DNA of 64,000 nt from Thermophilibacter immobilis (lineage in GTDB: Bacteria > Actinomycetota > Coriobacteriia > Coriobacteriales > Atopobiaceae). The translations under genes and the position numbers were made by a program. Shown piece after piece: positions 15,130 through 34,835 of this stretch. The notes under the pieces are model-generated. The model ran no database searches, was not told the origin of the DNA, and saw only the letters and a program-made list of their open reading frames with translations. The stretch lies in contig NZ_CP063767.1 of assembly GCF_015277515.1 (NCBI RefSeq), forward strand, positions 496,001 to 560,000. Direction: 5' to 3'. The first letter of the stretch is position 1. Each line of letters begins with the position of its first letter.

Positions 15130-15492
15130 ATGGACAACGCGCAGGACCAAATTAGAATCGTAGAGGAGACGGTTGCCGGCAAGGAGATCACGCTCGCGCA
15201 CGTCATCGGCGGCCCGGCTCCCATCATCTACACGAAGCTCGGTCTGAATCCCACGATTGACTACCAGGCGAGCGCGCTCGGCATCATGAACATGACGCCC
15301 CCCGAGTCGACGGTCATCGCGTCGGACATTGCCATCAAGGCCGCAGATGTCTACCTGGGGTTTGCCGATCGCTTCACGGGAACCCTCATCGTCACGGGTG
15401 AGATCTCCGACGTCACGACGGCGCTCGGCGCGGTTGTGGCCTACTTCCGTGACGTGCTCGGCTACGTTGCCTGCGACGTCACGAAGCGCTAG
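15130..15492 (+). CDS. eutS: EutS/PduU-type BMC shell protein 1
   Basis: The 120-residue protein has a circularly permuted BMC domain of the EutS/PduU group: EETVAGKEITLAHVIGG at the N-terminus, then ALGIMNMTPPESTVIASDIAIKAADVYLGFADRFTG and a C-terminal strand. These shell hexamers carry a small beta-barrel over the pore. An AGGAGGG ribosome site precedes ATG 15130. It begins a three-gene unit with a second eutS and eutP that ends at a terminator, upstream of the cut operon proper. Compared with the next gene it has a normal length. Confidence 0.9.
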   Translation: MDNAQDQIRIVEETVAGKEITLAHVIGGPAPIIYTKLGLNPTIDYQASALGIMNMTPPESTVIASDIAIKAADVYLGFADRFTGTLIVTGEISDVTTALGAVVAYFRDVLGYVACDVTKR

Positions 15493-15503
15493 GGGCCGAT
15501 CGC

Positions 15504-15935
15504 ATGGCGAACAAGCTCACGGGGGAAGGCTATCTCAAGAAGGTCTTCCGCGACCGCTATCGGGGGGGCTCTGGCCAGCGACTGCGCCTGACCAGGGTGA
15601 GCGTCCCCGGCCGTGAGGTCGACCTGGCGCACCTCATCGGCGTCTCACAGCGTAGCGCCTACGAGAACCTGGGGCTGCACATCGGCGTTCACAGCGGGGA
15701 GGACCACACGGGCGAGGCCATCGGCCTGATGCACTTCACGCCGTGGGAGTCCACCGTCATCGCGGCAGACATCGCCGTGAAGAGCGGCCAGGTCGAGATA
15801 GGCTTCCTGGACCGTTTCAACGGCTCCCTGATCCTCACGGGACCGCTCGCGGAGGTCGAGAGCGCCGTGACGCAGGTCCTCGGCTTCTTCAGAGACGAGC
15901 TGCACTTTGATTCCTGCGAGTTCACGAGGCAATAG
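15504..15935 (+). CDS. eutS: EutS/PduU-type BMC shell protein 2, N-terminally extended
   Basis: This is a paralogue of the preceding gene (11 bp upstream). It has a permuted BMC domain: PGREVDLAHLIGVSQRSAYENLGL, AIGLMHFTPWESTVIAADIAVKSG and GFLDRFNGSLILTG. The first ~25 residues (MANKLTGEGYLKKVFRDRYRG onward) are basic and extend beyond a normal EutS start; they could sit at the pore or bind cargo. It retains the signature residues but is clearly diverged from copy 1, so the pair may form hetero-oligomers or serve different faces of the shell. Confidence 0.88.
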   Translation: MANKLTGEGYLKKVFRDRYRGGSGQRLRLTRVSVPGREVDLAHLIGVSQRSAYENLGLHIGVHSGEDHTGEAIGLMHFTPWESTVIAADIAVKSGQVEIGFLDRFNGSLILTGPLAEVESAVTQVLGFFRDELHFDSCEFTRQ

Positions 15936-15958
15936 CAAGGAGAGTAGGCGCATCACAC

Positions 15959-16468
15959 ATGAAGCGGCTGTTTTTGATGGGTCGCAGCGAGGCGGGCAAG
16001 ACGTCGCTCGCCCAGGCGCTCAGGGGCGAGGAGCTCCACTATCACAAGACGCAGTTCACCTATGCGAACGACGACACCATTGACACCCCTGGCGAGTACT
16101 CCGAGTCAAAGGCGGTGGGGGTCGGGCTTGCCTGCTTCTCCTTCGAGTCCGACGTGGTCGCAATCGTGATCGCCGCGGACGAGCCCTTCACGGTCTTTGC
16201 CCCCAACTGCGGAGCCTTTCTGAACCGTCCTCTTATCGGCGTCATCACCAAGATCGACTCCCCCTATGCCAACGTCGCCATGGTCAGCCAGTGGCTCTTG
16301 AGCTCGGGCTGCGAGCGCATCTTCCAGGTCAACAACATCACGGGCGAGGGCGTGGGGGAGCTCAGGAACTACCTGCAGGAGGAGCTTCCGCAGATTTCTC
16401 TGGAAGAGGCCAAGAGGCTCCAGGGGATGGGGCTTCATGACTGGGACGCGCTTCCGAGCGAGGCGTGA
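15959..16468 (+). CDS. eutP: EutP/PduV-type small GTPase
   Basis: The 169-residue P-loop protein has MGRSEAGKTSLAQAL (Walker A), DTPGEYSESKAVGVGL (the G3 region) and ITKIDSPYANVAM (a TKxD-like G4). EutP and PduV accompany BMC loci; PduV has been linked to compartment positioning and EutP of some species to acetate kinase activity, so the exact role is open. It ends the short shell operon, about 100 bp before an intrinsic terminator. Confidence 0.88.
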   Translation: MKRLFLMGRSEAGKTSLAQALRGEELHYHKTQFTYANDDTIDTPGEYSESKAVGVGLACFSFESDVVAIVIAADEPFTVFAPNCGAFLNRPLIGVITKIDSPYANVAMVSQWLLSSGCERIFQVNNITGEGVGELRNYLQEELPQISLEEAKRLQGMGLHDWDALPSEA

Positions 16469-16568
16469 GGCGGGTGCTCTCGGCGCATCTCGAAACCATC
16501 TCGCAACGGTAATCATTTTGAAATTTCCCTGGTCAGAGTACGCAATGCTTGTCATTCTTAAGGAGCCT

Positions 16569-16590
16569 GGGTCGTCAGACCCCTCTTTTT
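16569..16590 (+). terminator. Terminator of the eutS-eutS-eutP unit
   Basis: The hairpin GGGTC-GTCA-GACCC (16569-16582) is followed by CTCTTTTTG. A second small hairpin GCTCC-T5-GGAGC at about 16627-16641 may reinforce it. The main cut operon therefore probably has its own promoter. Confidence 0.75.
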
Positions 16591-16868
16591 GCGCCCGATA
16601 AAAGCGCATTCATCCGAGGCATTGCGCTCCTTTTTGGAGCATTTTGCCCTTCTTGGGGAGAACAAGGACCTCCAAGGTCCGCTCAGCGCACCGCCCGCGC
16701 GCCCCACACTTCACCAGAAGGCGAAGCAACACCGTATGCGGTGGTTTATCCGCCATTTACCGATAGTTACGTGAAAAATCATAGGGTTCACATAAGGAGA
16801 GACCGTTACAGTAGCGGCTGCTGAGAGCAGGTTCTGTCGGCGCATGCGACCAAACAGGAGGTACAAAA
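16591..16868 (+). promoter_or_regulatory. Promoter/leader of the main cut operon, with GTGAA-N11-TTCAC dyad
   Basis: No gene is seen here. The stretch 16740-16800 is more AT-rich than its surroundings. A dyad GTGAA (16771-16775) and TTCAC (16787-16791) lies where a regulator such as the MerR protein at 32887 could bind. TTTACC and CATAGG flank it as weak -35/-10 boxes with 18-19 bp spacing, the spacing MerR proteins prefer. AGGAGGT before GTG 16869 is the ribosome site. All regulatory claims are inference. Confidence 0.35.
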
Positions 16869-17963
16869 GTGGCGAGTACGGACGTTTCACTCGATCTAGA
16901 GAGTCTGGCCAAGCGTAAAAAACGTGAGCTTGACCAGGGATTCTTTAAGAAGGGCATCCTTCTTGGTCTGTTCTCTGGCGTTACCTATGGCCTGTATACC
17001 GCCTTCATCACGGCGGCGGAGAACCTCGGCGTCTGGGGCGACTGGTGGTCTGGCTTCGAGGCCACGTCCTTCGTGGTCATCTTCATCCTGCCCACGATTG
17101 CGTCCGCGCTCAACGACCTCTGCAGCGCCCTGTGGGCTCTTGTCGTGACCGCGAAGCAAGGCAAGCTGGGTGACTTCGCGCTGACCCTGAAGTCCAAGCC
17201 GGGCCTGATCATGGTGGGGGCGGCCCTCGTGGGCGGTCCCATTGCCACCACCTGCTACATCATCGCCCTCTCGCAGGCAGGTCCCATCGCGTCGCCCGTC
17301 GCGGCCCTGAACGTCACGGCCGGGGCCATCTTCGGTCGCGTGCTATACAAGCAGAAACTGGGGGGAAGGACGATCCTCGGCATCGCCGTGTGCCTGACGG
17401 CGAGCGTGATGATCGGCAGCACCGCGCTGTCGGGCGAGGTGGGCTCGGGAATGGTGACCGGACTGATCTTCGCGCTTATCGCCGCGCTCGGCTGGGGCCT
17501 CGAGGGAACCATCGCCGGATTTGGCACCTCGATGATCGACTCCCAGATTGGCATTACGATTCGTCAGTGCACCTCGGGCATCGCGGACCTGTGCATCCTC
17601 CTGCCGGTCCTGGCGCTCATCGGGGGAACCGGGGTGGGCACCGCGTTCGGCTACCTCGGCCGGGCGATCTCGAACACGCCTTGGATCTTGGTATTCCTGC
17701 TGAGCGGATTCTTCGCCTACATCTCCTTTGCGAGCTGGTATAGGGGCAACTCCATGTGCGGCTCGGCCCTCGGCCAGGCCCTCAATGGCACCTACACCTT
17801 CTTTTCGCCCCTCTTCACGTGGATCGTCATGGGAATCGCCATGGGGCTCGAGGGCTATGCGCTGGCTCCCATCGCCTGGGTTGCCGCCATCGTCATGTTG
17901 GTTGGTATTTTTATTATGGCGGTTGATCCGCGCGACTTCCTGAGGAAGGAGGATGGCAAATGA
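16869..17963 (+). CDS. DMT/EamA-type membrane transporter in the choline BMC operon
   Basis: The 364-residue protein has about ten hydrophobic helices in two similar halves, typical of drug/metabolite transporters (EamA fold). It begins with a soluble N-terminus of ~28 residues. Gly/Ala-rich helix ends such as GPIASPVAALNVTAGAIFG and ALGWGLEGTIAGFG are characteristic. Because it is the first gene of the cut operon, it is a candidate for choline uptake or trimethylamine export. No BCCT or ABC choline transporter is present in the window. It overlaps the next gene by 4 bp (ATGA). The start is GTG 16869 behind AGGAGGT. Substrate is inferred from context only. Confidence 0.75.
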   Translation: MASTDVSLDLESLAKRKKRELDQGFFKKGILLGLFSGVTYGLYTAFITAAENLGVWGDWWSGFEATSFVVIFILPTIASALNDLCSALWALVVTAKQGKLGDFALTLKSKPGLIMVGAALVGGPIATTCYIIALSQAGPIASPVAALNVTAGAIFGRVLYKQKLGGRTILGIAVCLTASVMIGSTALSGEVGSGMVTGLIFALIAALGWGLEGTIAGFGTSMIDSQIGITIRQCTSGIADLCILLPVLALIGGTGVGTAFGYLGRAISNTPWILVFLLSGFFAYISFASWYRGNSMCGSALGQALNGTYTFFSPLFTWIVMGIAMGLEGYALAPIAWVAAIVMLVGIFIMAVDPRDFLRKEDGK

Positions 17964-18232
17964 GCAGCAAGCGACCGTTGAACTACATGATTCTCAAGTA
18001 CTACACCACGGTGGACGAGGCGAGCGTGGATGACGTCACCGGTGCCCTCGCGAGCGACTACGCGGACTATGCGGCCTTTAACAAGCCGCGGCTCATCGAG
18101 GCGCTCATGACGGCCGAGAAGAACGGGCTCATCGAGGAGTCACGCTTCGACCTGGACGACGCGGGCGAGGTCAGGGTCTTCTACCGGGCCACGCAAGAGC
18201 AGCGCGACACGATCAATTCCTACATCAAGTAG
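17960..18232 (+). CDS. Small BMC-associated protein of unknown function
   Basis: The 90-residue protein starts at ATG 17960 inside the transporter stop (ATGA overlap), so it is translationally coupled. It begins MSSKRPLNYMILKYYTTVDEA; the pattern of helices followed by a short beta pair (DDAGEVRVFYRAT) resembles a small winged-helix fold, but I cannot name the family. It has no membrane segment and no cysteines. Position between the transporter and the first BMC-H gene suggests a role in the choline compartment or its regulation. Confidence 0.65.
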   Translation: MSSKRPLNYMILKYYTTVDEASVDDVTGALASDYADYAAFNKPRLIEALMTAEKNGLIEESRFDLDDAGEVRVFYRATQEQRDTINSYIK

Positions 18233-18253
18233 GCAAAAAGTGGAGGTGGTCGG

Positions 18254-18550
18254 ATGCGTTACAGAGGTGAGGAGGCCATCGGCCTCATCGAGACGATCGG
18301 AATGGTTCCCGCGATCTTTGCCACGGACGCGATGCTCAAGGCGGGCGACACCGAGCTCGTCAGCTACGAGAACGTGGGATCCACGCTGGTGACCGTCATC
18401 GTCAAGGGCGACGTCGCCGCCTGCGAAGCGGCCGTGAAGGCGGGCTGCGCCGCAGCCTCGAGCATAGGCAAGCTGACGGCCCACAACGTGATGAAGCGCC
18501 CCGTGCCGTCCATCGGTGACGTGGTCTCTGTCCACGACGTGGATTACTAG
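18254..18550 (+). CDS. BMC-H shell protein
   Basis: The 98-residue single BMC domain has AIGLIETIGMVPAIFATDAMLKAGDTELVSYENVGSTLVTVIVKGDVAACEAAV. The pore loop reads ENVGST rather than the more usual KxGGG, so the pore is lined differently from the copies at 27-30 kb. These proteins form hexameric tiles of the compartment shell. AGGTGG precedes ATG 18254. Followed after 6 bp by a related BMC-H gene. Confidence 0.93.
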   Translation: MRYRGEEAIGLIETIGMVPAIFATDAMLKAGDTELVSYENVGSTLVTVIVKGDVAACEAAVKAGCAAASSIGKLTAHNVMKRPVPSIGDVVSVHDVDY

Positions 18551-18556
18551 GGGGTT

Positions 18557-18871
18557 ATGGTGGCTGACGAGAGCATGAACGCTTTGGGAATGATCGAGAC
18601 CTTTGGCCTCGTGTGGGTTCTCGAGGCTGGTGACGCCATGTGCAAGGCGGGCGACGTCGAGCTGATCGGCTATGAGAACACGGCATCGGGATACATCTCC
18701 ATCCTGGTCAGGGGTGACGTTGCGGCCTGCGAGGCCGCTGTCGAGACGGGCGTGAAGGCCGTCGAGGCGCTTGGCGCGGAGGTCTACAGCTCCGTCGTCA
18801 TTCCGAGGCCGCATCCGAGCCTCAAGAAGATCACCGACAAGTACACCGTCGAGAACCTTCTGCCGTACTAA
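18557..18871 (+). CDS. BMC-H shell protein
   Basis: The 104-residue BMC domain has ALGMIETFGLVWVLEAGDAMCKAGDVELIGYENTASGYISILVRGDVAACEAAV. It is closest in the window to the preceding gene but carries an ENTASGY pore loop, again not the GGG type. The C-terminal extension (PSLKKITDKYTVENLLPY) is longer than usual. Together with its neighbour it probably supplies pores suited to charged or larger substrates such as choline, though that is inference. Confidence 0.92.
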   Translation: MVADESMNALGMIETFGLVWVLEAGDAMCKAGDVELIGYENTASGYISILVRGDVAACEAAVETGVKAVEALGAEVYSSVVIPRPHPSLKKITDKYTVENLLPY

Positions 18872-18883
18872 GGGGGGTGTCTG

Positions 18884-20431
18884 ATGGCTCTTATAGACAA
18901 TGACCTGCTCTCCATTCAGGAGGCGAGAATTCTCCTTGAGCACGCTGATGAGTCTGTCAAAGTGCTAGAGAGCCTCCCCGCCCCGATTATCGACGACTTT
19001 CTGGCGCACCTGCGAGAGGCCCTTCTCCCCAAGGCCGCGCAGTACGCCAGGCTCGCCTACGAGGAGTCCGACTACTGCGACCCCTCCGACGAGGCGCAGC
19101 TGAGCACCTGGGTCCTCACGGACCTGCTCGACGACGTGCTCCACGAGGTACCCGTGCAGAAGATCGTGTACGGACCGCACGGCTCCTCGGAGGTGCGCCT
19201 GCCCAAGGGGGTCGTGGTCTCGCTTCTGCCTGACTGGTTGAGCGTTCCCACCATGCTGAGCCAGCTCGTGTCCGCGGTGCGCTCCAAGAGCCCCATCGTC
19301 TTCTCCGCCGACGCGCGGGTCCACGAGACGTGCGGGATCGTCCTAGACGACGTCGTTCAGGTTGCGGAGTTCTGCCACTACCCCCTCGACGCGATTGGGT
19401 ACTTGGGCACGTGCTGCACGGAGGGCGAGCAGTGGGTCTGCGACCAATCCTGCGTGAAGGTCGTGATCGACTCGCGCGAGAACTTCTCGGAGCATCGACA
19501 CAGGGCCGAGGGCAAGGACGTCTACTACGCGTCTTTGGGCAACAACCCCGTGTTCGTGGAGTCCACGGCCGACCTCGCCGCGTGTGCGGACGAGATCGTG
19601 GCCGGCAAGTCGTTCTGCTACGGGATGCTGCCCGGCTCCGAGCAGTCGGTCGTGGTCGAGGCGGCGATCGACGCACGGATGCAGGAGGAGCTCAGGCGCA
19701 GGAGCTGCTACTTCCTCTCCGATGAGGAGGCGGACCGTCTGGTCGAGGCGCTCTTCATGCGCGACGGGCGCCCGTATCGCGAGCTCATCGGAAAGTCGGC
19801 CTTCGACCTCGCGCGGCGCGTCGACATCTCGGTGCCCGAGACGACGAAGGTCCTCGTGGTCGAGAAGCCCTACGTGAGCGAGAGGAGCTTCTTCTCCAAG
19901 GCCAAGTACGGTCCCGTCCTGTCGTACTACGTCGAGGACAACTGGCGCGACGCCTGCGAGAAGTGCATCGAGCTGATCCTGAACAGCGGCCACGGCAACG
20001 CGCTGTCGATTTTCTCGAAGGACCCCGAGGTGGTGCGGCAGTTCATCCTCAAGAAGCCCGTGGGGCGCGTGCTGGTGAACGTGGGTACGGGGCTGGGCAG
20101 CATCGGCTGCCACTCGGACCTCCCCAAGACCCTGACCATCACGGGGTGGGACTGTGCCACCACCTCCGAGCTCGGCGTCACCTACGCGGACTTCGTGCGC
20201 AGGCGCCAGGTGGGCATCGGGCCGCACGACGAGGCTCGCTCCCTGCTCGGCAGGGCCGCCGGATGCGACCACACACCCGTCGCGACCAAGATACGCAGCC
20301 CGAACCCGGCGGATCTATCCGCCAAGGCCGGAGCGGCCACAGCGCCTGCCTCCGACGACGTTGCACAAGAGCCGGTTGACTGGTTCTCCAGGGTTCTGGA
20401 GGCCATGAGAGATAACCAGGAAAAGGAGTGA
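18884..20431 (+). CDS. Aldehyde dehydrogenase homologue lacking the catalytic cysteine (pseudoenzyme)
   Basis: The 515-residue protein aligns along its length with the CutF acetaldehyde dehydrogenase encoded downstream. Where CutF has TICASEQ, this protein has MLPGSEQ, so the nucleophilic cysteine is Pro250. The glycine-rich cofactor segment (TGGPGM in CutF) is also lost. Flanking blocks are clear, for example [14 protein letters not shown] against GNSPSYIERTANVR, so the alignment is not in doubt. The C-terminus has a Pro/Ala linker and an amphipathic helix ([16 protein letters not shown]), the form of an encapsulation peptide. It ends 2 bp before cutC. It cannot use the normal thioester mechanism; a structural, scaffolding or cofactor-binding role is likely. 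Confidence 0.85.
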
Positions 20432-20433
20432 GA

Positions 20434-22980
20434 ATGGACATCAAGGAGTTTGCCGAAGAGTTCTCCGAGGCCACCAAGGGGATGAGCCACGAGGAGCGCT
20501 CTGCCGTGAGGCAGATATTCGAGAAGGTCTCCGACCAGCTCGACAAGCCAATCACCAGCACGCCGGTCGCCGAGCCCGCGGGCGACGAGTCCCACGACAT
20601 TCCCGAGGGCCCCACGGCACGTCAGCTTCGCCTGAAGGACAACTTCATCAACCAGAAGCCGAGCATCACGACCTATCGCGCCCGTGCGGTCACCGAGATC
20701 ATGAAGGCCAATCCCGGCATGCCCAAGATTGAGATGCGCGCCAAGGCGTTTCGTCACTGCTGCGAGACGGCTCCCCTGGTGATCCAGGACGACGAGCTCA
20801 TCGTCGGCGCTCCGTGCGGCGCCCCTCGCGCCGGCGCCTTCTCGCCTGACCTGGCCTGGCGCTGGCTGGAGGAGGAGCTCGACACCATCGGCACCCGTCC
20901 GCAGGACCCCTTCTACATCTCGGAGGAGGACAAGAAGTACTGCAGGGAGGAGCTCTTCCCGTTCTGGGCGGGCAAGTCCCAGGACGAGATCTGCGAGGAC
21001 CAGTACCGCGAGTGCGGCGGCTGGGAGCTCTCCGGCGAGGCCTACGTCTCCGACTGCTCCTACCACGCCATGAGCGGCGGCGGCGACTCCAACCCCGGCT
21101 ATGACGTCATCCTCATGAAGAAGGGCATGCTCGACATCCAGAACGAGGCCAAGCAGCACCTCGGCGAGCTCGACTACGCCAATCCCGACGACCTGGACAA
21201 GATCTACTTCTACAAGTCCGTGATCGATACCACCGAGGGCGTCATGACCTACGCGAAGCGCCTGAGCGCCTATGCCCAGCAGAAGGCCGACGCCGAGACC
21301 AACCCCAAGCGCAAGCACGAGCTGGAGCAGATTTCCCAGATTCTGGGGCACGTGCCGGCCCACAAGCCGCGCACCTTCTGGGAGGCTGTGCAGTCGGTCT
21401 TCGTCATCGAGTCCCTCCTGCCCGTCGAGGAGAACCAGACCGGCATGTCCATCGGCCGCGTCGACCAGTACATGTATCCCTTCTACAAGGCCGACATCGA
21501 GTCTGGTCGCCTCACCCCCTACCAGGCGTTCGACATCGCGGGCTGCATGCTCATCAAGATGAGCGAGGTCATGTGGGTCACCTCTGCCGGCCAGTCCGAG
21601 TTCTTCGCCGGCTACCAGCCGTTCATCAACATGACGCTCGGCGGCGTCACCCGTCGCGGCGAGGACGCCTGCAACGACCTCACCTACCTCCTCATGGACG
21701 CGGCTCGTCACGTGAAGATCTACCAGCCCACGATCGCCTGCCGCATCCACAACAAGTCTCCCGAGAAGTACCTGCGCAAGATCGTCGACCTCGTCAAGGC
21801 CGGCATGGGCTTCCCCGCCTGCCACTTCGACGACACCCACGTCAAGATGATGCTCGCCAAGGGCGTCTCGGTCGAGGACGCGCGCGACTACTGCATGATG
21901 GGCTGCGTCGAGCCCCAGAAGTCCGGCCGCCTGTACCAGTGGACCTCCACCTCCTACACCCAGTGGCCCATCTGCATCGAGCTGGCGCTCAACCATGGCG
22001 TCGACCTGTGGTACGGCAAGCAGGTCGCGCCCGACCTGGGCGAGCTCTCCCAGTACAAGACCTACGAGGAGTTCGATGCCGCCGTCAAGAAGATCATCTA
22101 CTACGTCACCAAGTGGACCGACGTCATGACGGTCATCTCACAGCGCGTCGTGCGTGACGTCACTCCCAAGCCCCTCATGTCGATCATGTTCGAGGGCTGC
22201 ATGGAGAAGGGCAAGGACGTCTCCGCCGGCGGTGCCATGTACAACTACGGCCCCGGCGTCGTGTGGACGGGCCTGGGCACCTACACCGACTCCATGGCGG
22301 CCATCAAGAAGCTGGTCTTCGACGACCACAAGTACACGCTCGATCAGCTCAACGAGGCCCTGCGTGCCGACTTCGTGGGCTATGAGCAGATTCAACAGGA
22401 CTGCATCAACGCCCCCAAGTACGGCAACGATGACACCTACGCCGACGAGATCGCCGCGGACCTGCTCTACTACACCCAGCAGATTCACGTCCAGTTCAAG
22501 ACGCTTTACTCTCACTTGGACGTGGGCACTCTCTCCATTTCCAACAACACGCCGTTCGGCGAGATGACCGGTGCCTCCGCCAACGGGCGCAAGGCTCTCA
22601 CGCCGCTCTCCGACGGCATCAGCCCCAGCCAGGGTGCCGATCACAACGGTCCCACCGCCATCATCAAGTCCATCTCCAAGCTTCCCAACGACCTGATGAA
22701 CATCGGCATGGTCCACAACTTCAAGCTGATGGGCGGCCTTTTGGACACCCCGGAGGGCGCGAACGGCCTCATCACCTTGCTGCGCACCGCATCCATGTTC
22801 GGCAACGGCGAGATGCAGTTCAACTACCTGGACAACGAGACACTGATCGACGCCCAGGCGCACCCCGAGAAGCACCGCGACCTCGTCGTGCGCGTGGCAG
22901 GCTACAGCGCGTTCTTCAACGAGCTGTGCAAGGACGTCCAGGACGAGATTATCAGCCGCACGATGCTGACCAAGTTCTAG
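20434..22980 (+). CDS. cutC: Choline trimethylamine-lyase (glycyl radical enzyme)
   Basis: CutC cleaves choline to trimethylamine and acetaldehyde anaerobically. The 848-residue protein has Cys491 and Glu493 in MGCVEPQ, Gly823 in RVAGYSAFF, and Tyr210, Asp218 ([10 protein letters not shown]), Phe397 and Thr504. As I recall them, the D. alaskensis CutC active-site residues are Y208, D216, F395, C489, E491, T502 and G821, so every one is present at +2. The first ~55 residues form an amphipathic helix plus linker, a probable encapsulation signal; length fits the short type I CutC. The start is ATG 20434 with AAAGGAG 6 nt upstream. It is separated from cutD by a strong hairpin. Confidence 0.97.
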
Positions 22981-22995
22981 CCGAGCGCCCAGGTT

Positions 22996-23026
22996 GGGGG
23001 CGGGCGTCCTTTCGCGCCCGTCCCCC
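22996..23026 (+). promoter_or_regulatory. Strong hairpin between cutC and cutD
   Basis: GGGGGCGGGCG (22996-23006) pairs with CGCCCGTCCCCC (ending 23026) with one bulged T. No U-tract follows. It may stabilise the cutC message or lower read-through into cutD, consistent with needing much more lyase than activase. Confidence 0.45.
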
Positions 23027-23052
23027 TGTTCGAGCGAGGATTTTAAAGAACG

Positions 23053-24012
23053 ATGAAGGGAGGAATGATGGGCCAGGAGCAGGAAGTGCCAGAGCGCAAG
23101 GTACGCGTCTTCAACTTCCAGAAGTACAACATGTACGATGGCCCGGGCATTCGCTCCAACGCCTTCTTCAAGGGATGCCCCCTGCGGTGCAAGTGGTGCT
23201 CGAACCCCGAGAGCATCCATCGAGGCTACGAGGTCATGTTCAAGCAGGCAAACTGCGTGAACTGCGGTGCCTGCGTCGAGGTCTGCCCCGTCAACGTCCA
23301 TAAGCTTGACGGCCCCGTGCACATCGTCGACCGCTCCGTCCAGTGCATCGGCTGTCGCCAGTGCGAGAAGGCGTGCCTCTACAGCGCGCTGGAGATCATG
23401 GGTCACGACCGCACGGTGGAAGAGATCATCGAGTTCTTCGACCAGGACAAGGACTTCTACCGCATGTCCGACGGCGGCATAACGCTCACGGGCGGCGAGG
23501 TCCTGGCACAGCCCGAGGCCGCGCTTGCCGTCCTCATGGCGTCCAAGGCCCGCGGCTACCATACCGCGATCGAGACCTGCGGATACGCGGCGGAGGCAAC
23601 GGTCAAGAAGGTCGCGCCCTACGTAGACCTCTTCCTGTTTGATATCAAGCAGATGGACCCTGTCAGGCACAAGTACTGGACGGGCGTCAACAACGAGCAG
23701 ATATTGAGCAACGTGAAGTGGCTCCTGGAGAACGGCTACAACGTTCGCGTCAGGATGCCGCTGCTCAAGGGGGTCAACGACTCCAAGGAAGAGATCGATG
23801 CGGTAATCGAGTACTTCAAGCCCTATCGCTACCAGAAGAACTTCGACCGCGTCGACCTTCTGCCCTACCACAAGCTGGGCGTGGGCAAGTACCAGTCCCT
23901 AGGTCGCGACTACGAGATCGAGGGAGACCCCTCGCTGAGCGACGAGGACCTCAACAACATCGAGACGTGGATCAAGGACGCCGACTTCAGGGTCAATCTC
24001 GTGAGGCACTAG
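23053..24012 (+). CDS. cutD: Choline TMA-lyase activating enzyme (radical SAM)
   Basis: CutD uses S-adenosylmethionine and a [4Fe-4S] cluster to abstract hydrogen from the CutC glycine. It has the radical-SAM CxxxCxxC motif in GCPLRCKWCSNPES. Two ferredoxin-type clusters are inserted (CVNCGACVEVCPVN and CIGCRQCEKACLYS), the usual architecture of glycyl-radical activases. GGEVLAQPE and YHTAIETCGYA are further family motifs. ATG 23053 (GAGGA 12 nt upstream) is used; ATG 23068 with AAGGGAGGA close by is possible. The 319-residue length is normal. Confidence 0.95.
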   Translation: MKGGMMGQEQEVPERKVRVFNFQKYNMYDGPGIRSNAFFKGCPLRCKWCSNPESIHRGYEVMFKQANCVNCGACVEVCPVNVHKLDGPVHIVDRSVQCIGCRQCEKACLYSALEIMGHDRTVEEIIEFFDQDKDFYRMSDGGITLTGGEVLAQPEAALAVLMASKARGYHTAIETCGYAAEATVKKVAPYVDLFLFDIKQMDPVRHKYWTGVNNEQILSNVKWLLENGYNVRVRMPLLKGVNDSKEEIDAVIEYFKPYRYQKNFDRVDLLPYHKLGVGKYQSLGRDYEIEGDPSLSDEDLNNIETWIKDADFRVNLVRH

Positions 24013-24066
24013 GAAAACATGAAAAGTTGTAGCGAAACATCCAACGATCGTGGAAGGGAGGAAGGA

Positions 24067-24690
24067 TTGCATTACATAACCGAAAGCGAGCTCCGCGACG
24101 CCTATGCTCACCAGCCGTATGACTCCTACGAGCTTCCCGGCGACGCGAAACTGACACCAAGCGCCAGGCAGTTCCTGAACGACTTCAGGATCGCCTTTGA
24201 CGGCGAGGGAGCGTACGCGGGCCAGGACCTATCTGACACTCATGCAAAGGCCACGGAAGCGCAGACGCAGACTGTCGACACGAGCGCGCTGCTGATGGAC
24301 GCGCATCTTTTGGGGTCCCAGCTCAGGCTGCTCTCACGGCATGCGCTCGGCATAGACAACGTGCTGGCGCGTCGCTGCGACGAGATAGGTCACGCCTGGG
24401 TCGCGGCGCATGCGATGAGCGACTTTGCCACCGACGGATCCAACAGCGTGGTCGAGCCGCATCTTCCGGGCGATGCGCCTGAACCTCCGCTCGATGCCTG
24501 CGTGCATCCCATCTGCTTTGAGGCGAGCGTGCTCTTTGCCCAGATAGCAAGATGCGTTCGCGTCTGGAAAAACGCGCGGTCGCGCATGGCGGCCGCCGAC
24601 GCCGAGGCGCTTGACGCGTGGATGTGCGAGGCGTCGGGCGCATGCGACGAACTGGCGGACGCAGTCAACAGGGCAAGGGAGGCGATGTAG
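24067..24690 (+). CDS. EutT-like protein of the choline BMC
   Basis: The N-terminus (HYITESELRDAYAHQPYDSYELPGDAKLTPSARQFL) closely resembles the start of EutT cob(I)alamin adenosyltransferases (ITExxLR...LTPSAR). The rest is helical with scattered cysteines and aligns only loosely by eye. TTG 24067 is preferred because GGGAGG lies 6 nt upstream; ATG 24019 would add 16 residues of unlikely sequence. CutC needs no cobalamin, so a true adenosyltransferase would be out of place. The protein may be a repurposed BMC assembly or cargo factor. It ends 3 bp before eutJ. Confidence 0.6.
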   Translation: MHYITESELRDAYAHQPYDSYELPGDAKLTPSARQFLNDFRIAFDGEGAYAGQDLSDTHAKATEAQTQTVDTSALLMDAHLLGSQLRLLSRHALGIDNVLARRCDEIGHAWVAAHAMSDFATDGSNSVVEPHLPGDAPEPPLDACVHPICFEASVLFAQIARCVRVWKNARSRMAAADAEALDAWMCEASGACDELADAVNRAREAM

Positions 24691-24693
24691 GGC

Positions 24694-25542
24694 ATGGCAG
24701 ATCTTGACGGTGCTAACAACAGGCTACAGGCGATGCTCGACACCGTTGAGCACCCTGCGAAGGTCAGCAAGGACGAGGAGCTCTACTGCGGGCTGGACGT
24801 GGGAACGGCCTTCATCGTTGTCGCGGTGGTCGACGCCCAGGGCAGGCCCGTGGCGTGTGCGTATCAGTTCGCCGACGTGGTTCGCGACGGTATGGTTGTG
24901 GACTACCTCGGCGCGTGCGACATCGCCCAAAGCCTCAAGGACACGATCGAGTCCCAGCTGGGCGTCGAGCTCACGCAGGGTGCGGTGGCCATCCCGCCGG
25001 GAACGGAGAACCTCGACGGCGGCGTGGTCCGCAACGTCTGCGAGTCCACGGGCCTCGGGTGCGTGGCCATCTTCGACGAGCCCACGGCGGCCAACCTCGT
25101 GATCGGCACCAAGAACGGTGCCGTGGTCGACATCGGCGGCGGCACCACGGGCATCTCGATCTTCGAGGATGGGCGCGTGGTCAAGAGCGTCGACGAGTCT
25201 ACGGGCGGGACCCACTTCAGCCTCGTGCTCGCCGGCAGCAAGAACATCACCTTTGACGAGGCGGAGACCTACAAGCGCGACTCTGCCCACCACCGCGAGG
25301 TCCTTCCCGTGGTCGCACCCACGATCGACAAGGTCGCGACGATCATCCGTGACGCCTGCGCCGGCTATGACGTGCCCGAGGTCATCCTGGTCGGGGGCAC
25401 CTCCGAGCTCACGGGGATCGAGGGACGCGTCCAGAAGCGCCTGGGGGTCCCGGTGTCCAAGCCCAATCACCCCATGTTCGTGACCCCCATGGGCATCGCG
25501 CTCGGCTGCATGCTCGAGGCCCGAGGTGGTCTCAGTGGCTGA
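24694..25542 (+). CDS. eutJ: EutJ-like Hsp70-family BMC chaperone
   Basis: The 282-residue actin/Hsp70-fold ATPase shows GLDVGTAFIVVAVVD (phosphate 1), DEPTAANLVIG and VVDIGGGTTGISI (phosphate 2), and LVGGTSELTGIEG (adenosine motif). It has no peptide-binding domain, as in EutJ. The first ~30 residues are a helical extension. EutJ proteins occur in BMC loci and are thought to help assemble or reactivate encapsulated enzymes; the function is inferred. It overlaps the next gene by 8 bp. Confidence 0.92.
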   Translation: MADLDGANNRLQAMLDTVEHPAKVSKDEELYCGLDVGTAFIVVAVVDAQGRPVACAYQFADVVRDGMVVDYLGACDIAQSLKDTIESQLGVELTQGAVAIPPGTENLDGGVVRNVCESTGLGCVAIFDEPTAANLVIGTKNGAVVDIGGGTTGISIFEDGRVVKSVDESTGGTHFSLVLAGSKNITFDEAETYKRDSAHHREVLPVVAPTIDKVATIIRDACAGYDVPEVILVGGTSELTGIEGRVQKRLGVPVSKPNHPMFVTPMGIALGCMLEARGGLSG

Positions 25543-25840
25543 CATCAAGATCATTCGCAATCCCGCCCCCGGAACCATGGCGATCATCAACCAGAGGAGC
25601 GGGGCACGCTGGGACAAGGACTTTCTTCCCAGCGCCGTCGGACTCGTCCAGGGCAAGATGATCGAGATGGTCGTCGCGAGCGACGTCGCCGAGAAGACGG
25701 CCGGCGTCATCGTGAGCGACGTGCGGGGCTCCTGCCCGCAGAACATGGTCATGCTCGCGATCGCGGGCGAGACCGCGGAAGTGGTGGAGTGCCTCCGCAA
25801 GATCAGGGACGACAAGGGTGGTGCCCATGATTGTTTGTAA
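25535..25840 (+). CDS. BMC-domain protein with cysteine in the pore loop (GrpU-like?)
   Basis: The 101-residue protein has a BMC-like core, AVGLVQGKMIEMVVASDVAEKTAGVIVSDVRGSCPQNMVMLAIAGETAEVVECL, preceded by about 30 residues (IKIIRNPAPGTMAIINQRSG). At the pore position it has GSCPQN instead of the usual Gly-rich loop, so a hexamer would present six cysteines near its axis. Iron-sulfur-binding BMC proteins such as PduT and GrpU place cysteines there, so electron transfer or metal binding is possible. GTG 25535 is preferred (GAGGTGG upstream) over GTG 25526. It overlaps eutN by 14 bp. Confidence 0.75.
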   Translation: MADIKIIRNPAPGTMAIINQRSGARWDKDFLPSAVGLVQGKMIEMVVASDVAEKTAGVIVSDVRGSCPQNMVMLAIAGETAEVVECLRKIRDDKGGAHDCL

Positions 25841-26096
25841 GCTCATCGGATCCATTTGGGCGACGCGAAAGTTCGAGGAGCTGGACGGCTCCAAGCTCAT
25901 GCGCGTCGAGGTGCTCACGGGTGACGACCGGGGCAAGCAGCTCATCTGCGTTGACACCATAAGCGCCGGCGTCGGAGACCGGGTGCTGGTCACCACGGGA
26001 GCGGCCGCCTATCTGTTCATGCGAGACGAGTTTGGCAAGAACGCACCGATCGATGCGGTAATCGTAGGAATCATCGACGAAGACGTCGAGTTGTAA
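25827..26096 (+). CDS. eutN: EutN/CcmL-type BMC vertex protein (pentamer)
   Basis: The 89-residue BMC-P protein begins MIVCKLIGSIWATRKFEEL and continues LMRVEVLTGDDRGKQLICVDTISAGVGDRVLVTTG, then DAVIVGIIDEDVEL; these are the EutN/CcmL signatures. Pentamers cap the twelve vertices of the shell. ATG 25827 has AAGGG about 9 nt upstream and overlaps the previous gene. It is the only vertex protein in this locus. Confidence 0.95.
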   Translation: MIVCKLIGSIWATRKFEELDGSKLMRVEVLTGDDRGKQLICVDTISAGVGDRVLVTTGAAAYLFMRDEFGKNAPIDAVIVGIIDEDVEL

Positions 26097-26111
26097 GGAA
26101 AGGAGGACCAG

Positions 26112-27038
26112 ATGAAGAGGCTTATCAGCGCCAAGGACGTGCTGGACGCGGCCAAGGAGCACAAGGACCTGACGGTCGACAAGAACACCATCGTCACGGC
26201 CCAGGCTGCAGATCTCGCATGGGAGAACGGCGTTCTTCTCGTGTCCGACTCTGACGCGCAGGAGTCCTCATCGAAGGGGTGCGCCGCCACGAAGGCCCCC
26301 GAGGCGCATGAGGACGCGATTGCTTCGTGTGGCGCCACGAAGGAGCAGGAGCCGGTCCTCACGGCCAGCCAGATCGAGGAGATCATGACCGCGGCCGTGG
26401 ACAAGGGACTGTGGACCGCGGACGAGCTGCAGAGCCTGCTACACGGCAATGCCCCCGCAACGCAGGAGCTCCCGCCCGTCACGGTGGGCGTGTCCAACCG
26501 GCACATCCACCTCTCCCAGGAGCATCTCGAGCAGCTCTTTGGCAAGGGCCATGAGCTCACCCCGATCAAGGACCTCTCGCAGCCCGGCCAGTTCGCCTCC
26601 AAGGAGTGCGTGACGCTCGTCGGACCCAAGGGCGTCATCGAGAAGGTTCGCGTGCTCGGCCCCGTGCGTGCGCGCACGCAAGTCGAGATCCTGGCGGCGG
26701 ACACCTTCAAGCTGGGCGTCCCCCAGGCCATCAGGCTCAGCGGGCACCTGGAGGGCACGCCGGGCATCACCGTCGTCGGGCCCGAGGGCACCGTCGTCCT
26801 TCCCGAGGGCGTCATCGTCGCCTCGCGTCACATCCACATGACGCCCGAAGATGCGGCGAGGCGCGACCTGCATGACGGGCAGGTCGTCTCGATCAAGTTC
26901 GGCGGCGAGCGCGGCGGCCAGCTTGACGAGGTGGTCATCAGGGCGACCAGGACCGGTGCCCTCGATTGCCACATCGACACCGAGGAGGCAAACGCGCTCC
27001 ACATCAAGAACGGCTCCGTTGTTGAGGTTGTTAAGTAG
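26112..27038 (+). CDS. pduL: PduL-type phosphotransacylase with EutQ-like N-terminal extension
   Basis: PduL converts acetyl-CoA and phosphate to acetyl phosphate and CoA, recycling CoA inside the compartment. The catalytic region (residues ~120-308) has zinc-type motifs NRHIHL (His131, His133) and SRHIHM (His240, His242), and GPVRARTQVEIL. The first ~45 residues (MKRLISAKDVLDAAKE onward) resemble the EutQ N-terminus and may target the enzyme to the shell. A 60-residue acidic linker follows. This gives a 308-residue protein, about 100 longer than a plain PduL. AAGGAGGA precedes ATG 26112. Confidence 0.92.
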   Translation: MKRLISAKDVLDAAKEHKDLTVDKNTIVTAQAADLAWENGVLLVSDSDAQESSSKGCAATKAPEAHEDAIASCGATKEQEPVLTASQIEEIMTAAVDKGLWTADELQSLLHGNAPATQELPPVTVGVSNRHIHLSQEHLEQLFGKGHELTPIKDLSQPGQFASKECVTLVGPKGVIEKVRVLGPVRARTQVEILAADTFKLGVPQAIRLSGHLEGTPGITVVGPEGTVVLPEGVIVASRHIHMTPEDAARRDLHDGQVVSIKFGGERGGQLDEVVIRATRTGALDCHIDTEEANALHIKNGSVVEVVK

Positions 27039-27089
27039 AACGGCTTGCAGGCAGGGTTGGGCATTGCTCACTGATGAAAGGAAACCGGA

Positions 27090-27371
<282 letters not shown>

Positions 27372-27434
27372 GTCCGTAAAAACACGTAGGAAACCAAGGC
27401 GGGCACGTGCCCGTCGACGAAGGGGGAAACCGGA

Positions 27435-27716
<282 letters not shown>

Positions 27717-27719
27717 GAC

Positions 27720-28295
<576 letters not shown>

Positions 28296-28338
28296 CGCGC
28301 TCTGGGGCCTGATTCGGTAACGGATGAAAAGAGAAGCG

Positions 28339-30021
28339 ATGGAAGAGTACGACTACGACCTCAAGAGCATCCAGGCTGCTCGCGACCTCGCGCGCAAGGG
28401 CAAGGTCGCGGCGAACCAGCTCGCCACCTTCAACGCCGAGCAGATCGACCGCATCCTGCGCAGCATGGTCGAGGCGGCCGAGAAGAACGCGGTCACCCTG
28501 GCCAAGATGGCGGTCGAGGAGACCACCTTTGGCAACGTGCACGACAAGATCTACAAGAACCACATGGCGTCTGGTCTTCTCTACGAGAACATAAAGGACA
28601 AGAAGACCATCGGCGTCATCGACGTGGACGAGAAGAAGCAGGTCATCACCATCGCCGACCCTCTCGGCCTCCTGCTGGGCATCGTCCCGTCCACCAACCC
28701 GACCTCGACGGTGTTCTACAAGTCGATGATCGCCCTCAAGTCCCGTAACGCCATCGTGTTCTCGCCGCACCCCAAGGCGATCAAGTGCACGAGCCTCGCC
28801 ATCAAGATCATGGAGGAGGCCGCCGTCGCCGCCGGTGCGCCCGACAACGTCATTCAGGGAGTCTCGCTGGCCACCATGGCCGCCACCAACGAGCTCATGC
28901 ACGCGCCCGAGGTCAGCACCATCATCGCGACCGGTGGCCCCGGCATGGTCAAGGCCGCCTACAGCTCGGGCAAGCCAGCGCTTGGCGTCGGCGCGGGCAA
29001 CTCGCCCTCCTACATCGAGCGCACGGCCAACGTGCGCCAGGCCGTGAAGCAGATCATCGCCTCCAAGACGTTCGACTACGGCACCATCTGCGCCTCCGAG
29101 CAGAGCATCGTCTGCGAGACCTGCAACCGCGACGAGGTCATCTCCGAGCTCAAGCAGCAGGGCGGCTACTTCATGACCGAGGAAGAGTGCTCCAAGGTCT
29201 GCAAGCTCCTGTTCCGCAACGGCCATGCCATGAGCCCCAACTTCGTGGGGCACAGCCCCCAGTCCATCGCCCAGGCAGCGGGAATCTCCGTCCCCGAGGG
29301 CACCAAGGTCCTTATCGGCGAGCAGCACGGGGTGGGAGACAAGTGGCCGCTCTCCTACGAGAAGCTGACCACGGTCCTGGGCTTCTACACGGTCTCCAAC
29401 TGGGAGGAGGCGTGCGACCTGTGCATCCAGCTCCTGCAGAACGGCATCGGTCACACGTTCAACATCCACACCGAGGACAAGGAGATTGTCCGCAAGTTCT
29501 CCGTCAAGCCGGCCTCTCGCATCCTCATCAACACGGGCGGCACGCAGGGCGGCACGGGGCTCTCCACGGGGCTCGACGTGGCGCTCACGCTGGGCTGCGG
29601 CTCCTGGGGCGGCAGCTCCATCTCCGAGAACGTCGGACCCGAGCACCTCATCAACACCAAGCACGTCGCCAACGGCATCATCGAGCCCTACGAGGTGGCA
29701 GCGCAGGACAAGGTCTTCGCGAAGTACCATCCCGAGCTCGTGGCCGACTATGCCCTCTGCGACTCGTCCGCGGGCTGCTGCTGCGAGCCCTCCAAGCATA
29801 CCCTTGACATGCCGGTCGGCACGGGCGGCCACAGCACGGCGGGAATCGACATGCCGGTCGGTCACAACACGTCGGGCATCGGCTACTCGCTGGGCTGCAA
29901 CAGCTGCGGTGGCCCCGCGCCCACGGAGTCGACGAAGGATCTCTCCGACGTCATCGACGCCGACGAGCTCAAGAAGATGGTCACGGAGCTGGTAGCCGCC
30001 TTCCGGGGGTCCGACGACTAG
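28339..30021 (+). CDS. cutF: CoA-acylating acetaldehyde dehydrogenase
   Basis: CutF oxidises acetaldehyde released by CutC to acetyl-CoA with NAD and CoA. The catalytic cysteine is in TICASEQSI (Cys251 from this start), with TGGPGMVKAAYSSGKPALGVGAGN and the IVPSTNPTSTVFYK block, typical of PduP/EutE enzymes. After the catalytic domain there is a Cys-rich linker (GCCCEPSK, GCNSCGG) containing a small repeat of DMPVG. An amphipathic C-terminal helix (LSDVIDADELKKMVTEL) follows, a probable encapsulation peptide. Starts at 28339 and 28324 are both weak; 28339 is used because AGAGAAG precedes it. Confidence 0.93.
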   Translation: MEEYDYDLKSIQAARDLARKGKVAANQLATFNAEQIDRILRSMVEAAEKNAVTLAKMAVEETTFGNVHDKIYKNHMASGLLYENIKDKKTIGVIDVDEKKQVITIADPLGLLLGIVPSTNPTSTVFYKSMIALKSRNAIVFSPHPKAIKCTSLAIKIMEEAAVAAGAPDNVIQGVSLATMAATNELMHAPEVSTIIATGGPGMVKAAYSSGKPALGVGAGNSPSYIERTANVRQAVKQIIASKTFDYGTICASEQSIVCETCNRDEVISELKQQGGYFMTEEECSKVCKLLFRNGHAMSPNFVGHSPQSIAQAAGISVPEGTKVLIGEQHGVGDKWPLSYEKLTTVLGFYTVSNWEEACDLCIQLLQNGIGHTFNIHTEDKEIVRKFSVKPASRILINTGGTQGGTGLSTGLDVALTLGCGSWGGSSISENVGPEHLINTKHVANGIIEPYEVAAQDKVFAKYHPELVADYALCDSSAGCCCEPSKHTLDMPVGTGGHSTAGIDMPVGHNTSGIGYSLGCNSCGGPAPTESTKDLSDVIDADELKKMVTELVAAFRGSDD

Positions 30022-30067
30022 GTGCCCCTAGCGTTACGCGAACGGTCTTCGTACAAGGAGGATTGAA

Positions 30068-30346
30068 ATGAGAAATGCACTGGGCATGGTCGAGACCATG
30101 GGAAACGTTGGGGTCGTCGAGGCATCTGACGCCATGGTCAAGGCCGCAGAGGTGACGCTGGTGGGCAAGGTCAACGTGGGAGGCGGAATCGTCACCACCT
30201 TTATTCGCGGTGACGTGGCCGCCGTGAAGGCAGCCACCGACGCGGGTGCCGCAGCCGCCGAGCGCGTCGGCGAGCTGCGCTCCGTGCACGTGATCCCGCG
30301 GCCCGACGCCGAGATCGAGAAGATCGTCCCGCACCTGAACAGCTAG
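30068..30346 (+). CDS. BMC-H shell protein
   Basis: The 92-residue BMC domain has [60 protein letters not shown]. It is related to the triplicated proteins but diverged (NVGGG pore loop), so it is not part of the recent amplification. AAGGAGGA precedes ATG 30068. It is followed after 5 bp by the TPR gene. Confidence 0.94.
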
Positions 30347-30351
30347 ACGTC

Positions 30352-31161
30352 ATGGATGTCTCGAGCTTTTACGCCCAGCTCGACGGCCTGTATCATGAGG
30401 CGGGCTCAGACGTAGGCGGATACCTCAGGGGCCGCCTGCGTCTTGCCCGTTCGCAAGAGGACGAGCTGGGCGTCGCAGCCGTTGCGAACGAACTGGGAAG
30501 CGTCTTGAGGGTCCGTGGCGAGCTCGGGGAGTCCGAGGACCTATATGGCGAGGTGCTGGCCATTCTGCGCAGGCGCGGTGCTCAAGACGAACAGGTCGCC
30601 ACGGCCCTTCTCAACCTGGGCGACGTCTACGTTGCCCAGGGCAGGTACTTGGTGGCGGTCGACGCGTTCGACCAAGCCGAGTCCCTTCTGGGCGAGGGCG
30701 ACGTCTACGAGCTCAGCGCCGTGTGCAACAATCGGAGCAGCGCCTATCGGGGCCTTGGTGAGTTTGCGCGGGCCCGACAGGACCTGCGCCGGGCCGCGCG
30801 GCTGCTCGAGGGCGTTCCTGATTCCGAGGGTGCGCGCGCGGTCAACGCCATCAACCTCGCACAGATTCTTGTGGACGAGGGAAGGCTTCCAGAGGCCAGA
30901 GACGTCCTGGCTCCGGCTCTGGTGGCCTACGTGACACTGAGCGCGGGACGCGACATCCACCGTCCGAACGCGCTCGCCACGGCAGGCAAGATCAGCTATC
31001 TGATGGGCGCGTATCGAGCGTCCGCCGAGCTCTACGAAAGCGCATGGAAGTCCCTCTCCCAGAAGCTCGGCGAGTCAAAGACGGCCGCGGCCCTGCGCGG
31101 GGAGGCACAGAGGATTCGAAGGCTCGCGGATGAGGTCGAGGGAGAAGGCCGGCGCACCTAG
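30352..31161 (+). CDS. TPR-repeat protein in the BMC locus
   Basis: The 269-residue protein is almost entirely helical TPR-like repeats (for example VATALLNLGDVYVAQGRYLVAVDAFDQAE and AVCNNRSSAYRGLGEFARARQDL). There is no signal peptide or membrane segment, so it is cytoplasmic. It starts a cassette with the DUF4037 and DUF4125 genes and the MerR regulator, each joined by short gaps or overlaps. It may bridge protein partners or sense a peptide; the function is not known. The ribosome site is weak. Confidence 0.8.
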   Translation: MDVSSFYAQLDGLYHEAGSDVGGYLRGRLRLARSQEDELGVAAVANELGSVLRVRGELGESEDLYGEVLAILRRRGAQDEQVATALLNLGDVYVAQGRYLVAVDAFDQAESLLGEGDVYELSAVCNNRSSAYRGLGEFARARQDLRRAARLLEGVPDSEGARAVNAINLAQILVDEGRLPEARDVLAPALVAYVTLSAGRDIHRPNALATAGKISYLMGAYRASAELYESAWKSLSQKLGESKTAAALRGEAQRIRRLADEVEGEGRRT

Positions 31162-31232
31162 CACGTTTCTTTCGCGCACGGCGGATGGCGCACGACGGTC
31201 TTCACGCGAGGGGCCCATACGAGAATGAGAGC

Positions 31233-33744: not shown

Positions 33745-33746
33745 GC

Positions 33747-34835
33747 ATGGACGAGTTCAAGCTCAACACGCAGCTGTACTTTGGGTCGCGTGCGGTCGAT
33801 TGCCTGGGCAAGATTGACGGCAGCAACGTTCTTGTGGTCACGGACGGCTTCCTCGAGAAGTCGGGCATGGTCGCCAAGATGGTGCAGCACCTCCCCATGG
33901 GGGCCACGTACCAGACCTATTCCAACGTGAAGCCCGACCCGAGTCAGGAGCTCGTGGACGAGGGCATCGAGATGATCCTCGGGCTGCATCCCGACGTCGT
34001 CATCGCGTTCGGCGGCGGCTCCTGCATCGATTCCACCAAGGCTATCCTGTACTTCGCGCGCGAGAGGGGCCTCGAGCGGCCGTACTTCCTGGCCGTCCCC
34101 ACGACGGCGGGAACGGGCTCGGAGGTCACCAACTTCGCGGTCATCACGCGCGGGTCCGACAAGGTGGTGCTCATCGATGACTTTCTCGCCCCGGACGGCG
34201 CGCTGCTCGAGGCGGAGTTCACGCGCTCCGTGCCGACCAAGATCACGGCCGACACCGGTCTGGACGTGCTCACGCATGGCCTCGAGTCCTACGTGAGCAA
34301 CAGCTCGACACCCTTTACCGAGGCGCTGTCCGTCAAGGCCCTGCGCCTCGTCTTCGAGAACCTCCCCGTCACCTTCCGAGACGGGATGTCCATGCGCGCG
34401 CGCACGCGGATGATCGAGGCGTCGTGCATCGCCGGCATCGCCTTTACCAACGCGGGTCTGGGCATCAACCATTCGCTGGCGCACGCGTTCGGCGGCCGCT
34501 TCCACGTGGCCCATGGCAGAATCAACGCCGTCCTGCTCCCGTACGTCATGCGCTTCCACATGGGCGAGGACGCCTATCGCGAGCCGTACGAGCGCCTTGC
34601 CCACGAGCTGGGCCTGAGAGACGCCGACGAGCTGCTCCAGAGGATCATCGGCATCCGTGGCGAGCTCGGCGTCGAGGAGCGCCTCGCGGACCTGGGCATA
34701 GACGCGTCCTCGTTCGAGGTCGAGCTGAGCGGCATGGCCGAGGCCGCGCTGCACGACCGCTGCACGCCCACCAACCCGCGTCCTGTGTCCAAGCAAGACC
34801 TGGTCAACCTCTATCGCGACGCCTACAACGGCTAG
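33747..34835 (+). CDS. cutO: Iron-type alcohol dehydrogenase
   Basis: The 362-residue group III alcohol dehydrogenase reduces acetaldehyde to ethanol with NADH, balancing the redox work of CutF. Landmarks are FGGGSCIDSTKA and VPTTAGTGSEVTNFAVI (nucleotide site), and metal-ligand segments DTGLDVLTHGLESYV and GINHSLAHAFGGRFHVAHGR. GGAG precedes ATG 33747. It is the last gene of the locus and is followed by a strong terminator. No obvious encapsulation peptide is visible at either end. Confidence 0.92.
   Translation: MDEFKLNTQLYFGSRAVDCLGKIDGSNVLVVTDGFLEKSGMVAKMVQHLPMGATYQTYSNVKPDPSQELVDEGIEMILGLHPDVVIAFGGGSCIDSTKAILYFARERGLERPYFLAVPTTAGTGSEVTNFAVITRGSDKVVLIDDFLAPDGALLEAEFTRSVPTKITADTGLDVLTHGLESYVSNSSTPFTEALSVKALRLVFENLPVTFRDGMSMRARTRMIEASCIAGIAFTNAGLGINHSLAHAFGGRFHVAHGRINAVLLPYVMRFHMGEDAYREPYERLAHELGLRDADELLQRIIGIRGELGVEERLADLGIDASSFEVELSGMAEAALHDRCTPTNPRPVSKQDLVNLYRDAYNG

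Follow-up and report, generated by a model that had tools for sequence, protein, structure and literature searches.

The gene directly upstream of the choline TMA-lyase gene cutC in Thermophilibacter immobilis encodes an aldehyde dehydrogenase (AldDH) homolog, here designated CutB, that is predicted from its residues to be non-catalytic. It is nonetheless maintained, and its relatives beside cutC in other genomes have also replaced the catalytic cysteine. On balance, we lean toward the interpretation that CutB was once a catalytic subunit and has been retained to link CutC to the enzyme core. Gut-bacterial choline microcompartments make trimethylamine, and an inactive AldDH conserved in this position, next to the lyase gene, is an obvious candidate for what holds their enzyme core together. 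Features of the window, by which we mean the whole 64,000-nucleotide stretch of T. immobilis DNA analyzed, are collected in Table 1.

Table 1. Coordinates of cutB, its altered sites and neighboring genes in the window
Feature	Position	Strand	Basis or remark
Inactive aldehyde dehydrogenase homolog, CutB-type, 515 aa	18884..20431	+	Frame open throughout; AF2 model; closest fold 3k9d
Leu119 codon, at place of oxyanion-hole Asn (PSTNPTST in CutF)	19238..19240	+	Alignment
SRENFS, residues 197-202, at place of NAD-binding motif TGGPGM	19472..19489	+	Alignment
Pro250, codon CCC, at place of catalytic Cys	19631..19633	+	Alignment to CutF
Ala340 codon, at place of conserved Glu (R. palustris Glu419, Cphy1178 Glu357)	19901..19903	+	Alignment
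Asn372-Ala373, at place of catalytic His-Thr pair	19997..20002	+	Alignment
C-terminal amphipathic helix, encapsulation-peptide-like	20369..20425	+	AF2 helix 496-514; hydrophobic moment 0.68
Two BMC-type ORFs (shell proteins) directly upstream of cutB	18254..18871	+	PF00936 match for 18254-18547
cutC, choline TMA-lyase	20428..22980	+	TIGR04394 1580.6 bits, cut-off 1050; likely ATG at 20434
cutD, CutC-activating radical SAM enzyme	23053..24012	+	TIGR04395 526.5 bits
PduL-type phosphotransacylase	26112..27038	+	PF06130 252.5 bits
CutF, catalytic acetaldehyde dehydrogenase	28324..30021	+	TIGR02518 709.4 bits, cut-off 620.1; Cys, His-Thr, Glu, Asn, TGG intact
Iron-dependent alcohol dehydrogenase (CutO-like)	33747..34835	+	

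The choline locus (15130-34835) is complete. BMC shell genes, an EutP-like GTPase, an EamA-like transporter and two BMC-type ORFs precede cutB, cutC and cutD; these are followed by EutJ, EutN/CcmL, PduL, three BMC-H genes, CutF, a further BMC-like ORF, a MerR regulator and the iron alcohol dehydrogenase. The stop codon of cutB adjoins the start of cutC, whose likely ribosome-binding site lies inside the end of cutB. This choline microcompartment locus, with its cutC and cutD, is GRM1-type and carries two AldDHs; besides CutB there is CutF, which keeps its cysteine in the sequence TICASEQ. Among approximately 20 sampled congeners cutC is present only in T. immobilis, indicating a gain or loss of the locus during the history of the genus; in a published tree, the Cut proteins of some Actinobacteria, including Olsenella uli, fall inside Firmicutes (PMC6620236). 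Two of the three tandem BMC-H genes (27090-27371 and 27435-27716) are identical in DNA sequence (282/282), and the third (27720-28295) has three base differences in the same stretch and carries an Ala/Lys/Pro-rich N-terminal extension of ~97 aa. A 223-aa ORF between cutD and eutJ (24019-24690) has no match in Pfam or NCBIfam, and no RNA family reached its gathering score between positions 14500 and 36000.

Alignment of CutB to CutF (BLASTP; 28% identity over 401 aa, E 9e-45) places GMLPGSEQ of CutB opposite GTICASEQ of CutF, with no gap nearby. The initial annotation had described a full-length protein, non-catalytic by sequence, with proline in place of the catalytic cysteine and the TGGPGM motif lost, and this description is borne out and extended: the Cys, Asn, Glu, His-Thr and TGG positions are all replaced. 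Residue equivalence was assigned by alignment and by matching spacing from the cysteine. In the homolog Cphy1178, C269A and H387A substitutions each abolish activity while leaving the structure unchanged, and a role for Asn138 has been described (PMC4762007); Glu419 and His449-Thr450 of the R. palustris enzyme also have assigned roles (PMC5311937). CutB lacks the catalytic Cys and His expected of a CoA-acylating dehydrogenase (Pro250 and Asn372 occupy these sites), and it scores 218.6 bits against the TIGR02518 equivalog model for acetylating acetaldehyde dehydrogenases, below the cut-off of 620.1.

Loss of these residues is not accompanied by loss of the fold. An AlphaFold2 (AF2) model of CutB built from 37 aligned sequences (mean pLDDT 85.8, pTM 0.82) displays the three-domain architecture of the AldDH superfamily; among solved structures it most closely matches 3k9d (Z 52.5, rmsd 2.1 over 449 residues), followed by 5j78 and 5j7i. 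The helix that follows the NAD motif is nearly missing from the model, being reduced to residues 202-205 at low confidence. We considered that CutB might sense or bind a ligand (CoA, an aldehyde or choline) without turning it over. The predicted fold is intact and the C269A mutant of Cphy1178 still binds CoA (PMC4762007); however, the NAD motif of CutB is decayed and the active-site residues differ between CutB subclades, and we regard this function as improbable.

The C-terminus of the model resembles an encapsulation peptide. Residues 467-495, which are of low confidence and which we take to be a disordered linker, lead into a short amphipathic helix at 496-514, the arrangement expected of encapsulated cargo. 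A cargo-type helix had been proposed initially, and we find it in 80/89 CutBs. It is missing in the other nine, mostly from Lachnospiraceae and Oscillospiraceae; these proteins (loci L039, L045, L046, L056, L064-L066, L068 and L072) end right after the AldDH fold.

We surveyed AldDHs encoded beside cutC. A CutC-alignment scan of 84,980 species genomes supplied 80 loci (the best 80 of 363, all or nearly all from Firmicutes), to which Coriobacteriia and Enterococcus loci were added; Desulfobacterota and most Proteobacteria fall outside this set. The upstream AldDH of locus L026, sorted by our script with the other AldDHs, was counted as an upstream copy. At the catalytic site of the AldDH directly upstream of cutC in Coriobacteriia and Firmicutes, we found Ser in 48, Pro in 34, Ala in eight and Cys in none (n=90). 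By comparison, all 85 readable catalytic AldDHs, 82 from GRM1 loci and three from GRM2 loci, have Cys. Conservation of the Cys-to-Pro change among cutC neighbors, a question raised by the initial annotation, thus holds for the absence of cysteine but not for the identity of its replacement. The Coriobacteriia orthologs that we read (60-75% identity) share the proline, which together with the lack of cysteine in any cutC-adjacent homolog excludes chance or sequencing error. In 391 Clostridia genomes drawn separately, we found seven CutBs, all with Ser (7/7); the remaining matches in those genomes retain Cys and were not seen to be followed by cutC. A local mutation is ruled out by these two samples.

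The prevalence of serine raises the prospect that CutB has kept an enzymatic activity of a different kind, such as Ser-dependent acyl transfer or an esterase activity in the Clostridium type, and many of the 48 Ser-type CutBs retain His, Thr and Glu. However, the other 42 proteins, the CutB of the window among them, have Pro or Ala, Ser or Leu usually occupies the Asn site, none of 89 CutBs keeps the second Gly of TGG, and the rate of the cofactor segment is relaxed (see below). We find retained chemistry harder to credit than ligand binding.

Within the sampled Coriobacteriia, co-occurrence of the two genes is strict: the same 14/396 genomes carry both cutC and cutB. Where a locus is long enough to reveal both proteins, CutB almost always occurs together with an active CutF. 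Two metagenome-assembled genome (MAG) loci, L081 and L102, have cutC without cutB, which is missing from the rest of the assembly as well, and CutB is therefore not indispensable. The CutC proteins of these two loci also lack the long N-terminal extension discussed below. CutB and the CutC extension do not strictly replace each other, as L081 and L102 have neither. In the L102 genome, an EUT-type AldDH takes the place of GRM1 CutF. A further genome of the collection encodes, besides its first CutC, another and more distantly related CutC-like glycyl radical enzyme (G366:C1:1277100-1279331), which scores above the TIGR04394 cut-off and is located ~12-14 kb from the first.

Substitution patterns indicate that cutB is under purifying selection, with dN/dS of 0.07-0.23 in 20 pairs, values often higher than those of cutF and cutC. 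The earlier claim that the protein is being maintained is supported by this constraint and by conservation across phyla. One could instead regard CutB as a functionless, decaying leftover, or as the product of a sequencing error or local mutation, given that its catalytic residues are lost and that the two MAG loci manage without it. This is barely credible in the face of the dN/dS values, an open frame and gene position kept across Coriobacteriia and Firmicutes, and the strict co-occurrence with cutC.

Where the constraint acts differs between CutB and CutF. After normalization of site rates within each family, the NAD segment (CutB residues 197-216) has a rate of 1.22 in CutB vs 0.14 in CutF. 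This strong decay relative to CutF, like the loss of the motif itself, disfavors the suggestion in the initial annotation that CutB might be a cofactor carrier. Conversely, constraint has been gained in CutB at the N-terminal helix (residues 1-16; 0.70 vs 1.84 in CutF) and at residues 317-336 (0.63 vs 1.27). Every CutB has Lys360, a residue that is hardly ever found at this position in the other proteins; Glu351 is likewise invariant in CutB and is common to GRM2 CutF and some EUT enzymes. Residues 1-20, 324-330, 351-361 and 378-394 make up the conserved stretches of CutB. We infer from these rates a protein that is probably kept for contacts rather than for chemistry. Distance matrices do not single out a partner, as partial correlations of 0.48 for CutB-CutC and 0.41 for CutB-CutF have overlapping bootstrap ranges.

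Phylogenetic analysis indicates that CutB is no degenerate duplicate of the neighboring CutF. The inactive copies, including the CutB of the window, form one clade (SH-aLRT 100) in an 81-protein tree. Slower trees were restricted to the shorter-branched Clostridial CutBs with up to 16 EUT-type outgroups, and the CutB of the window is placed by way of the 81-protein tree. In three such trees, CutB is sister to the GRM2 CutF of E. coli and Proteus (support 100/98, 99/97 and 100/98); in the last of these, the Clostridial CutBs join GRM2 CutF at 100/98.2, and both GRM1 CutF and the EUT AldDHs lie outside this group. Constraining CutB to join GRM1 CutF was rejected in two trees (p-AU 0.00018 and 0.00012), which rules out an in-locus duplicate of the neighboring CutF. 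At columns where GRM1 and GRM2 CutF differ, CutB resembles GRM2 at 19 and GRM1 at seven; Gly in columns 216 and 426 is common only to the majority of CutBs and GRM2 CutF; and a one-residue deletion occurs only in GRM1 CutF, being absent from CutB and GRM2 CutF. On the simplest reading of these sequences, the cysteine would have been lost once, at the base of CutB, with the residue varying afterwards. In GRM1 loci, the chemistry is carried out by the separate CutF lineage.

This ancestry bears on the possibility that CutB forms mixed tetramers with CutF as a regulatory pseudo-subunit, tuning the activity or stability of CutF. Tetramer-forming AldDHs share the fold of CutB, the literature mentions a tetramer of a GRM-type AldDH (PMC6971018), and an active CutF almost always accompanies CutB in sufficiently long loci. 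Nevertheless, we consider such tetramers unlikely: CutB is not derived from its would-be partner, to which it is only ~28% identical in the window, and cutB adjoins cutC, whereas cutF is located 7.9 kb away.

We favor instead a role for CutB in tying CutC into the enzyme core. According to this proposal, a second AldDH, GRM1 CutF, would have taken over catalysis and CutB would have been kept for a structural job. That job may be the one reported for GRM2 CutF besides catalysis, namely CutC binding and cross-linking of the enzyme core: GRM2 CutF binds CutC, enlarges CutC assemblies and has been proposed as a core cross-linker (PMC6971018). The C-terminal helix of CutB would join the core or the shell, and the surface now under selection would be the site of contact with CutC, CutF or both. 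The effect of GRM2 CutF depends on the N-terminal extension of GRM2 CutC (PMC6971018). In the GRM2 loci that we read, there is no CutB and CutC is long (1128 aa in E. coli); in GRM1 loci, CutB is present and CutC is ~850 aa, without the GRM2 N-terminal extension. The CutB-CutC contact therefore cannot be identical to the GRM2 contact. In C. ljungdahlii, choline induces the AldDH gene beside the choline lyase (log2 7.2) along with the lyase (7.9) and the other AldDH (5.6) (PMC12016505), which fits a core adaptor. We count as evidence against this role the two loci without CutB, the nine homologs without the helix, the absence of the extension from GRM1 CutC, and the failure of the distance matrices to pick a partner.

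More tentatively, we speculate that CutB is the ancestral choline-microcompartment AldDH, which is still active as GRM2 CutF. GRM1 organisms would have kept CutB purely for CutC binding and core building after the second AldDH took over catalysis, and in GRM2 the binding between CutC and CutF would have been solved by the long N-terminal extension of CutC.

An inactive second AldDH in GRM1 choline loci is already published. Axen, Erbilgin and Kerfeld (2014) reported, for every GRM1 choline locus with two AldDHs, a Cys-to-Ser/Pro change in the second AldDH, suggested that this protein is a scaffold or regulator, and listed Olsenella uli as a GRM1 organism (PMC4207490). The AldDH tree of Sutter et al. 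(2021) marks the GRM1A/GRM1B "-" copies as putatively inactive, and the sister relation of CutB to GRM2 CutF may already be visible in that tree (PMC8217296). Relative to the literature searched, we add the occurrence of Ala at the catalytic site, the shift in site rates, with decay of the NAD site and constraint gained elsewhere, the loss of the C-terminal helix in a minority of CutBs, and a test of the sister relation to GRM2 CutF. The sister relation sharpens the earlier "scaffold or regulator" remark into a specific question: does CutB bind CutC as reported for GRM2 CutF?

CutB of the window resembles the published GRM1 inactive AldDH in locus type, in the replacement of Cys by Pro or Ser and in proposed role (PMC4207490). 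It departs from that description in also lacking His-Thr, Glu, Asn and TGG, and in having Ala variants among its homologs. GRM2 CutF (E. coli, Klebsiella, Proteus) forms its sister clade in every careful tree and shares a C-terminal amphipathic helix; however, GRM2 CutF has an intact Cys, is the only AldDH of its locus, and is paired with a CutC that has a long N-terminal extension. GRM1 CutF shares its fold, superfamily and organelle with CutB, but has intact catalytic residues, belongs to a separate clade and carries the one-residue deletion that CutB lacks. The EUT2-type acetaldehyde dehydrogenases and their solved relatives (Listeria 3k9d, Geobacillus 5j78) provide the closest solved folds (Z 50-52), with EUT-type enzymes forming the outgroup to CutB plus GRM2 CutF; unlike CutB, they retain their catalytic residues, and they are ~25% identical to the CutB of the window.
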